The position numbers and the translations under genes are program-made. Of a DNA stretch of 64,000 bases, positions 52,479-55,258 are shown in pieces (the first letter of the stretch is position 1; every line of letters begins with the position of its first letter). Location of the stretch: assembly GCA_035651955.1 (NCBI GenBank), contig DASRES010000003.1, forward strand, positions 1 through 64,000, read 5' to 3'. The stretch comes from Acidimicrobiia bacterium (lineage in GTDB: Bacteria; Actinomycetota; Acidimicrobiia; IMCC26256; JAMXLJ01). The notes beneath the pieces were generated by a model. That model saw only the letters and a list, made by a program, of their open reading frames with translations, was not told the origin of the DNA and searched no databases.

Positions 52479-52575
52479 CGAGTCCACGACGAGACTGTGG
52501 CCGCGCGGAGGCGTGCGACGAAACCGAAATCCGACCGCGTTGACGATTGCCCGGCGCGCGGGCGATCCTCCCCGC

Positions 52576-54009
52576 ATGCTTCCCGTGCCGGACGGCCTCG
52601 TCGCCGTCGTCAAGCGGGACTGCCCGACGTGCAACCTCGTGGCGCCCGTCCTCGCCGAGCTCGCCCGCGACGACGAGAAGCTGACCGTCGTCTCCCAGGA
52701 CGACCCCTCGTTCCCCGACGGCATGACCGTCGTCGACGACCGCGATCTCGACGTGTCGTTCGCCCTCGACCTCGACACCGTGCCGACGTTGCTGCGCGTC
52801 GAGAACGGCGACGAGATCGGGCGCGTCGTCGGGTGGAGCCGCGACGCGTGGCAGGAGTTCACGGGTCACGACGCGCTCGGCGACGGGCTGCCGGAGCACC
52901 GGCCCGGGTGCGCGTCGCGCACGCAGGACCCGGCGATCGCCGAGGCCCATGCCGTCGCGCAGATCACGCCGAGGTTGCGATCGCGCACCGTGACGCTCGG
53001 CTCCGACGAGGACGACGCCGAGGCCTGCTTCGCGCGCGGGTGGACGGACGGCCTTCCCGTCGTCCCCCCGACGCCCGAGCGCGTCGCGCGCATGCTGATC
53101 GGGACGACCCGCGCACCTGAGGACGTCGTCGCGGTCGTACCGCCGGACCTCGTCGAGTGCACCGTCGAGAAGGTCGCCGCGAACGCCGTGATGGCGGGCT
53201 GCCGGCCGGAGTACCTCCCGATCGTGCTCGCCACCGTCGAGGCCGCGTGCACCGACGAGTTCAACATGCACGGGCTGCTCGCGACGACGTGGTTCGCGGG
53301 CCCGGTCGTCGTCGTCAACGGGCCGGCCGCACGCTCGGTCGGCATGAACTCCGGCGTCAACGCCATGGGGCAGGGGAACCGCGCGAACGCGTCGATCGGC
53401 CGCGCGCTCCAGCTCGTCGTGCGCAACGTCGGCGGCGGACGGCCGGGCGAGATCGACCGCGCGACGCTCGGCCAGCCGGGCAAGTACACGTTCTGCTTCG
53501 CGGAGGACGAAGCCGGCTCGCCGTGGGAGCCGCTGCACGTCGAGCGCGGCTTCGGACGCGACACGTCGACCGTGACGCTGTTCGCCGGCGAAGGCCCGCG
53601 CGGGATCATCGACCAGCTCTCCCGCGAGCCGGAGTCGCTCGCCCGGAGCTTCGCGTGGTGCCTGCGCACGACGACACACCCGAAGATCGCGATCGCGTTC
53701 GACGCGATGCTCGTCGTCTCGCCCGAGCACGCGCGCGTCTTCCGTGAGGCCGGCTGGACGAAAGCGCGGTTGCACGAGGAGCTGAACGCGCTGCTGCAGC
53801 TCGACGGCAAGGACATGGTCCGCGGCGCGGGTGGGATCGCGGAAGGTCTGCCCGAGGTGCTCGCCGACGCGACGTTGCCGAAGTTCCGCGACGGCGGGCT
53901 GCTGATCGTGCATGCGGGCGGTGGTGCCGGCTTGTTCTCCGCGATCATCGGCGGGTGGGCGAGCGGCGCAGGCGGCAGTCAGGCGGTGACACGGGAGGTC
54001 GGTACGTGA
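52576..54009 (+). CDS. Thioredoxin-fold N-domain fused to a large domain, first gene of the UGSC selenoprotein operon
   Basis: The 477-residue protein begins with a thioredoxin-like domain (VVKRDCPTCNLVAPVLAELA, Cys16 and Cys19; then DTVPTLLRVENGDEIGRVVGW). A large unnamed domain follows, with conserved-looking blocks ARGWTDGLPVVPPTPERVA, ANAVMAGCRPEYLPIVLATV, MNSGVNAMGQGNRANASIGR and VHAGGGAGLFSAIIGGW. The stop overlaps the GTG of the UGSC gene, so the two are tightly coupled and probably form a complex or redox pair in which the CxxC serves the selenocysteine protein. Chemistry unknown. Confidence 0.78.
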   Translation: MLPVPDGLVAVVKRDCPTCNLVAPVLAELARDDEKLTVVSQDDPSFPDGMTVVDDRDLDVSFALDLDTVPTLLRVENGDEIGRVVGWSRDAWQEFTGHDALGDGLPEHRPGCASRTQDPAIAEAHAVAQITPRLRSRTVTLGSDEDDAEACFARGWTDGLPVVPPTPERVARMLIGTTRAPEDVVAVVPPDLVECTVEKVAANAVMAGCRPEYLPIVLATVEAACTDEFNMHGLLATTWFAGPVVVVNGPAARSVGMNSGVNAMGQGNRANASIGRALQLVVRNVGGGRPGEIDRATLGQPGKYTFCFAEDEAGSPWEPLHVERGFGRDTSTVTLFAGEGPRGIIDQLSREPESLARSFAWCLRTTTHPKIAIAFDAMLVVSPEHARVFREAGWTKARLHEELNALLQLDGKDMVRGAGGIAEGLPEVLADATLPKFRDGGLLIVHAGGGAGLFSAIIGGWASGAGGSQAVTREVGT

Positions 54010-54527
54010 GCCAACGCGTGTTGCTCGATCCGACGGGCGAGCTCGCACCCACGACGCGTGCACGCGCGGCGCGGCCGGCGTCGCTCGACGGGAAGGTCGT
54101 CGGCCTGCTGGACATCGCCAAGGCGCGCGGGAACGTGTTCCTGGACCGCGTCGAGGAACAGCTCGCGGGACGGGGGCTGACCGTGAAGCGCTTCGCGAAG
54201 CCGACGTTCACGAAGCCTGCGCCCATCGACCTCCGTCACGAGATCGCGACACAGTGCGACGTCGTGATCGAGGCGCTCGCGGACTGAGGCTCGTGCACGT
54301 CGTGCAGTGTGCACGACATCGTCGATCTCGAGAGTCGGGGCCTGCCGTCCGTGATGATCGCGTCGTCGGCGTTCGTCGACGCCGCGAGCGTGCAGGCGGA
54401 CGCACTGGGTGCCGACCCGGCCCGCGTGTTCGTCCCGCACCCGATCCAGGACCGCACCGACGACGAGGTCCGGGCACTGGCCGACGGCGCGATCGATGAC
54501 ATCGTGCGTAACCTCACGGCCGGCTAG
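54006..54527 (+). CDS. UGSC-family selenoprotein with in-frame TGA read as selenocysteine
   Basis: The frame opens at GTG 54006 (overlapping the previous TGA) and meets TGA at 54285-54287. It continues without a break and with the same high-GC codon use to a TAG at 54525-54527. Read through, it gives 173 residues with Sec94 in the motif U-G-S-C-T-S-C followed by SVHDIVDLESRGLPSVMI. This motif names the known UGSC (seleno)protein family, whose function is unknown. A perfect 8-bp hairpin starts 3 bases after the TGA, as expected for a bacterial SECIS. A simple gene call would end at 54287. It is second in a four-gene operon. Confidence 0.85.
54285..54316 (+). promoter_or_regulatory. Candidate bacterial SECIS element
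   Basis: TGA (54285-54287) and GGC are followed by TCGTGCAC (54291-54298), a 10-base loop GTCGTGCAGT and GTGCACGA (54309-54316), forming a perfect 8-bp stem. The apical loop lies about 14-23 bases from the TGA and contains G and T residues, within the range known for bacterial SECIS hairpins bound by SelB. Confidence 0.75.
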
Positions 54528-54547: not shown

Positions 54548-55258
54548 ATGCTGTTCGTGCACGAGGTCCACCGGGTCGCGGGCGCACGCGAGCACGAGTT
54601 CGAGACCGCGTACCGTGAGGGCTGGATGCCGGCGCTCGCGCGCGACGACGACGCACGGCTGCTCTACTTCCTGCACCACGCGCACGGCAGCGGGCGCGCG
54701 TACGTCGTCGTGACGATCACCGTGGTGCGCGACGGCGCCGCGTATCAGCGTCTCGTCGAGCGCGTGCAGACCGGCGACCTGCGCGAGTGGGCGGCCGCGA
54801 TCGATCGGAACCGGCACGGCGTCGACGGAAAGGTCCTCGTCCAGGTTCCGTGGTCGCCGATGCACGCGCTCGACCTCGCGACGATTCCCGTCGAGGGAGG
54901 CGAGCGCCCGCTGTCCTTGTTCATGGAGGACACCGCGTGGCCGCACGAGGCGATGCTCGACGAGTACTTGACCGCCGCGCACGACCACTACGCGCCGAGC
55001 CTCGCCGAAGGCCGTCACGGGGGGCGCGCGCTGCTCGAGCTGCAGGCCGTGTTCCAGACCGCGTGGGGTTCGGGTCGCCGGCGCGAGGTCGTGCTGTGGC
55101 AGAAGGTGATCGAGCCGTCGCGCATCTCCGGGCTGCTCACGACCGAGATCCCGGCCGAGCATCGTGGGCCGGGCACCTGGATGCACGACGCGCTGCGCGT
55201 GCGCGACGACTGGGAGAGCCGACTGCTCCGCACGTCTTCGTGGTCACCTCTCTGCTGA
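54548..55258 (+). CDS. NIPSNAP/ABM-like protein of the UGSC operon
   Basis: The 236-residue protein appears to hold two alpha+beta barrel-like halves, the first starting LFVHEVHRVAGAREHEFETAY and the second around SLFMEDTAWPHEAMLDEYL, with long aromatic-rich strands. The pattern resembles NIPSNAP proteins, a fold used for small-molecule binding, but the match is loose. AGGAG sits well before the ATG. It follows the selenoprotein gene by 20 bases and is therefore probably in the same operon. Function unknown. Confidence 0.65.
   Translation: MLFVHEVHRVAGAREHEFETAYREGWMPALARDDDARLLYFLHHAHGSGRAYVVVTITVVRDGAAYQRLVERVQTGDLREWAAAIDRNRHGVDGKVLVQVPWSPMHALDLATIPVEGGERPLSLFMEDTAWPHEAMLDEYLTAAHDHYAPSLAEGRHGGRALLELQAVFQTAWGSGRRREVVLWQKVIEPSRISGLLTTEIPAEHRGPGTWMHDALRVRDDWESRLLRTSSWSPLC

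Follow-up and report, generated by a model that had tools for sequence, protein, structure and literature searches.

The stretch of DNA analysed here (the window; 64,000 nucleotides from a genome of the class Acidimicrobiia) harbours two overlapping genes on the forward strand, the features of which are collected in Table 1. The downstream gene opens with GTG at 54006, reaches an in-frame TGA at 54285-54287 (residue 94) after 93 codons and ends with TAG at 54525-54527; when read through, it encodes 173 residues with the motif U-G-S-C-T-S-C, in which UGSC occupies residues 94-97. According to the original prediction, made from the sequence alone, the frame crosses this TGA with its GC-rich codon use unchanged, and the GC content of the three codon positions agrees with this (0.74/0.47/0.89 before the TGA and 0.72/0.49/0.90 after it). 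The assignment of the motif to a (seleno)protein family was likewise borne out by the curated models of the UGSC family: NF041046 covers both halves of the read-through product (158.4 bits against a cut-off of 125, profile positions 1-147 of 147), and PF24696 matches the whole product with 158.3 bits (cut-off 25). These matches are far beyond chance, and column 94 of the homologue alignment is invariant when U is read as C. Judged from the sequence, it is nearly certain that the apparent stop splits a gene whose full-length product contains selenium and belongs to the UGSC family, which is known but uncharacterised; this selenoprotein adds a new member to an existing family.

Table 1. Features of the UGSC locus in the window
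Feature	Position	Strand	Basis
Obligate partner gene, 498 aa, unnamed family	52513..54009	+	Adjoins UGSC in 34/35 phylum, 52/52 Cys-type and 6/6 plasmid loci
Thioredoxin-fold domain, partner N-terminus, CPTC at residues 39-42 (52627-52638)	52594..52863	+	AlphaFold model, Foldseek hits to thioredoxins
Partner core, about residues 165-497; without a Pfam model or a sequence match in the PDB	53005..54003	+	Sequence searches
Shine-Dalgarno-like GGGAGG, 7 nt 5' of the GTG start	53993..53998	+	Sequence
4-nt stop/start overlap GTGA of partner and UGSC genes; translational coupling likely	54006..54009	+	Sequence
UGSC selenoprotein gene, 173 aa, Sec = residue 94	54006..54527	+	NF041046 158.4 bits, PF24696 158.3 bits
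In-frame TGA, predicted to be decoded as selenocysteine	54285..54287	+	Same alignment column: TGA in homologues, TGC/TGT in Cys homologues
Candidate SECIS hairpin GTCGTGCA-GTG-TGCACGAC, 8 bp, 3-nt loop beginning GU, 19 nt after TGA	54299..54317	+	Criteria from PMC13188914

Matches to PF24696 were found in 28 of the 346 genomes of the phylum and exceeded the cut-off in 26. An alignment of homologues at residue 94, suggested originally as a check, placed TGA, TGC or TGT in one and the same column: among the loci examined in detail, the window included, TGA is present in 28 of 33 and TGC or TGT in five (L024, L056, L071, L075 and L076). A lack of the downstream half in homologues had been named as possible counter-evidence; the homologues keep this half. 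In the phylogenetic tree, the clade of 17 sequences that includes the window consists of Sec forms throughout (support 100/98). In other UGSC clades, Trp or Tyr takes the place of the last Cys of UGSCTSC. The UGSC locus of one genome of the same class (G294) is identical to that of a Microthrixaceae MAG (L122). Three MAG records titled Bifidobacterium breve (L103, L108, L117) carry UGSC sequences nested among those of lake/aquatic actinobacterial MAGs, and their species label looks wrong. Since the window comes from a MAG and the read-through product is predicted from sequence, it might be argued that translation really ends at the TGA, or that the TGA is a sequencing error, and that the half behind it is a relic. 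Given that TGA recurs at the same column in many genomes and that the downstream protein is conserved, this is extremely improbable; the hairpin with its compensatory change, the complete Sec machinery and the further Sec genes of the genome, all described below, speak against it as well.

Published criteria for bacterial SECIS elements comprise a loop of 3-9 nt with G in one of its first two positions, a stem of 4-16 bp, a spacing of 16-37 nt and a minimum free energy of at most -7.5 kcal/mol (PMC13188914). The hairpin downstream of the UGSC TGA lies within all of these ranges (3-nt loop GUG, 8 bp, 19 nt, -18.9 kcal/mol). Among the 28 TGA homologues, all eight pairs are formed in 20, seven in three and six in three, and pairing fails in two; in the divergent TGA homologues L089 and L082 the hairpin is absent in this register. 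The five Cys homologues form only 1 to 5 of the pairs. In four sequences, where Cys100 is replaced by Trp, a C-G pair of the stem has changed to G-C on both sides, mostly by way of a silent change of a Val codon (GTG to GTC). A covariation test of the hairpin showed pairing in 95.5% of cells and a covariation score reached by no shuffle. The same hairpin was found in plasmids of Acidovorax and Paracoccus and in a Myxococcales MAG. Thermodynamic stability alone does not single it out (z -1.4), and a synonymous-codon test restricted to the window gave a modest result (p 0.026). What speaks for a SECIS element is that the hairpin is conserved between genomes, covaries and is missing from the Cys forms, rather than its stability alone. 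The Acidovorax sp. T1 plasmid, a conjugative IncP plasmid, carries its TGA-type UGSC-partner unit (L176:7425-8945) beside IS elements, and its gene table contains no gene over the TGA-type UGSC match, which shows how gene calling can miss TGA-type UGSC genes.

The original prediction further implied that the organism makes selenocysteine, and the complete machinery was indeed detected in the same genome (4.1 Mb in 92 contigs, 96% complete). It includes tRNA-Sec (67.9 bits against a gathering score of 47; reported by ARAGORN as SeC with anticodon TCA), selA (468 bits) adjacent to selB (303.7 bits, or 334.3 with its neighbours in frame) on contig C72, and selD (401 bits) on contig C88, the three protein-coding genes all scoring above their curated cut-offs. 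Across genomes, selA was found in 20 of 21 with a TGA-type UGSC gene against 6 of 18 of the same class or order without UGSC (Fisher p 7e-5); the sole TGA-type genome in which it was not found, G036, is 94% complete. The window's genome harbours two further UGSC genes, one with TGA on contig C40 and a paralogue with TGC on contig C5. A formate dehydrogenase gene with TGA at the expected position (NQARI-U-H) was observed on contig C84 (L169:1501-2250; G000:C84:3843 onward), and it is followed, 19 nt after the UGA, by a hairpin with the loop GUU, in the same layout and spacing as that of UGSC. The enzyme is unrelated to UGSC and is used here solely as an internal control for UGA recoding in this organism. 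Taken from these sequence data, the insertion of selenocysteine at the UGSC TGA appears practically beyond doubt.

The function of the family had been left as unknown in the original prediction. More can now be said, since the gene belongs to a conserved module of two genes. The partner family (∼360 aa) is labelled "hypothetical protein" in annotated records, and its core, in which Cys 230 and Cys 328 are nearly invariant, has neither a Pfam nor an NCBIfam model and gave no match when compared by sequence with solved structures. The partner was also considered as a homologue of GrdE/PrdA or a member of a Pfam family, and none was found in the Pfam/NCBIfam searches. In the loci collected by UGSC alone, the partner not being used as a query, it adjoins UGSC in 34 of 35 cases within the phylum and in 52 of 52 Cys-type cases, the latter from Actinomycetota, Alcaligenaceae, sphingomonads, Haloarchaea, Archaeoglobi, Myxococcota and Binatota. 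The sole exception (L089) has its UGSC gene 0.7 kb from the contig end. The three UGSC and three partner genes of the window's genome are all paired, and in six plasmid loci, which were collected by the partner, a UGSC domain is adjacent or fused in every case. The order of the two genes varies between loci, and fusions without an intervening stop occur in G113, G186, G136, Streptomyces hyaluromycini, Nocardia jiangxiensis, Pseudonocardia parietis and others. The gene partnership, as seen at the sequence level, is thus strong, and the two proteins very probably form a physical complex.

Fused UGSC-like/partner proteins were also noted at L179:7281-9005, L181:7659-9344 and L085:6861-8609. Those of Sporomusa termitida and Vibrio europaeus have Met in place of Sec/Cys (DMGTS) and both lie near genes for aconitase X and DUF126; the G136 fusion (L085) is similar to them in layout. 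It may be asked whether the partner is itself the enzyme, with UGSC acting as a factor for its maturation, its regulation or for sensing. Such an arrangement would give the same picture of strict pairing and fusion, and the two nearly invariant Cys residues of the partner core as well as the Met-containing fusions would suit it; yet the costly Sec has been retained in many lineages and the CxxC motif is kept in the Cys forms of UGSC, which argues for catalysis at residue 94 and renders a merely auxiliary UGSC improbable.

The nearly universal location of the family beside its partner suggests that UGSC and partner together form a thioredoxin-driven enzyme. The N-terminal domain of the partner carries CxTC in 15 of the 17 partners of the window's clade and CxTS in two sister members, and TIGR01068 matches 15 of 34 members of the partner family; partners outside this clade are without the thioredoxin domain. 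Genes for thioredoxin-disulfide reductase were found in seven loci of the neighbour clustering, and all five that were tested scored above the TIGR01292 cut-off. In addition, the public records of Roseovarius sp. THAF8 and Variovorax sp. SRS16 annotate a gene beside the pair as trxB. It is probable, then, that thioredoxin is the electron source of the module. Neither the fixed pairing of UGSC and partner nor the coupling to thioredoxin (reductase) was found described in the papers and databases searched.

As for the substrate, CaiB CoA-transferases were found near the UGSC-partner pair in 20 loci, other neighbours being acyl-CoA enzymes, short-chain dehydrogenases, amidohydrolases, LysR regulators and TctC/TRAP uptake systems; the neighbour clusters were named by eye from their sequences, unless the name comes from a family search or from public annotation. 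These neighbours point to the catabolism of organic acids, probably of different acids in different lineages. The gene neighbourhood varies from lineage to lineage and so does not point to one substrate, and no single conserved one emerged from the neighbour clustering. The window's own genes downstream of UGSC gave no clue to the substrate. The nearest of them, a 236-aa gene at 54548-55258, begins 20 nt downstream of UGSC and is possibly part of the same transcript; it matches no Pfam/NCBIfam model, and the other UGSC loci contain no homologue of it.

The structure predicted for UGSC (pLDDT 95.6) is an alpha/beta sandwich of five strands in which Sec94 occupies the N-terminal end of a helix, and its nearest solved folds are FMN reductase-/flavodoxin-like, with a TM-score of only ∼0.45. 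The thioredoxin-like fold proposed in 2008 was not retained, the model being a Rossmann/flavodoxin-like alpha/beta sandwich with no thioredoxin fold around UxxC. At the sequence level, the motif UxxCxxC is that of the selenoprotein B of GrdB and PrdB (PMC13188914), and in comparisons of 32 single UGSC members with the selenoprotein B profiles of glycine, sarcosine and betaine reductase and of D-proline reductase, weak but recurrent matches in the Sec region were obtained by 22 with GrdF, by 21 with GrdB (best E 1.2e-6) and by 3 with PrdB. The window UGSC, with 16.9 bits against a GrdB family cut-off of 602.2, falls outside that family, and PF07355 (GRDB) has no match in the window's genome. 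When UGSC and partner were compared as profiles with GrdB-like proteins of actinobacteria, no support was obtained; such proteins are poor comparators, since they occur as full-length and short C-terminal-only forms without Sec/Cys. Many of them (L143-L154, L156-L167), of either length, have neither Sec nor Cys at the catalytic column and therefore cannot be classical selenoprotein B. What the sequences indicate between UGSC and selenoprotein B is a distant relationship, not membership.

An alternative is that UGSC and partner are a plain thiol/selenol oxidoreductase, reducing peroxides, disulfides or reactive electrophiles, instead of a GrdB-like reductase that cleaves its substrate. Simple redox enzymes are common among UxxC selenoproteins, a thioredoxin-like redox role was assumed for UGSC in the GOS study (PMC2398784), and the thioredoxin domain and thioredoxin reductase fit such an enzyme equally well. 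The predicted fold is, however, Rossmann/flavodoxin-like rather than thioredoxin-like, the family matches go to selenoprotein B, and the neighbours belong to organic-acid/CoA catabolism with LysR regulators and uptake systems, not to stress genes, so that a plain oxidoreductase seems rather unlikely.

The reading favoured here, for which there is good though not overwhelming reason, is that UGSC and the upstream partner form a two-component reductase driven by thioredoxin, in which UGSC is the selenium-bearing catalytic subunit, its Sec94 being inserted by SelB and the SECIS element. In such an enzyme, SelB and the hairpin 19 nt downstream would recode the UGA at 54285 as Sec94, and the core of the partner (gene 52513-54009) would hold the substrate, which is most likely an organic acid or a CoA ester. 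On the analogy of glycine and D-proline reductase, with their selenoprotein B, the selenolate of Sec would attack an electrophilic atom of the substrate, and Cys97 of UxxC would resolve the adduct to a selenenylsulfide. The latter would be re-reduced by the partner's thioredoxin domain (CPTC) in the window's clade, and by thioredoxin and thioredoxin reductase in other lineages. Reductive cleavage of the GrdB type, drawn from that analogy, is put forward only tentatively. With the fixed partner, the fusions and the thioredoxin domain or thioredoxin reductase, an orphan selenoprotein becomes a defined complex open to purification and assay, the partnership and the thioredoxin coupling make the function of the family testable, and the difficulty of expressing Sec proteins is sidestepped by the Cys forms that occur in culturable Alcaligenaceae, Roseovarius and haloarchaea.

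The closest known systems include the "UGSC-containing" selenoprotein named in the 2008 GOS study, where it was fused to a domain termed "Unknown_1" (PMC2398784). The window protein shares with it a full-length match, the UGSC motif and Sec encoded by an in-frame TGA, but its clade is made up of Sec forms only, with a partner that bears a thioredoxin domain; "Unknown_1" may be the partner described here. With selenoprotein B (GrdB, GrdF and GrdH of glycine/sarcosine/betaine reductase; PrdB of D-proline reductase), the window UGSC has UxxCxxC in common, and the module resembles these systems in its multi-subunit organisation. It may further be likened to glycine reductase, which uses a thioredoxin dithiol (PMC10298544). 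In contrast to the GrdB and PrdB systems, no resemblance to the pyruvoyl subunits GrdE and PrdA was seen in the partner, and UGSC occurs in many lineages known as aerobes. It is conceivable, if somewhat doubtful, that UGSC and its partner constitute an undescribed class of thioredoxin-driven (seleno)reductases that cleave a substituent from organic acids or CoA esters in many bacteria and haloarchaea generally regarded as aerobes, a pyruvoyl-free counterpart, with an unrelated substrate subunit, of the clostridial glycine and D-proline reductases.
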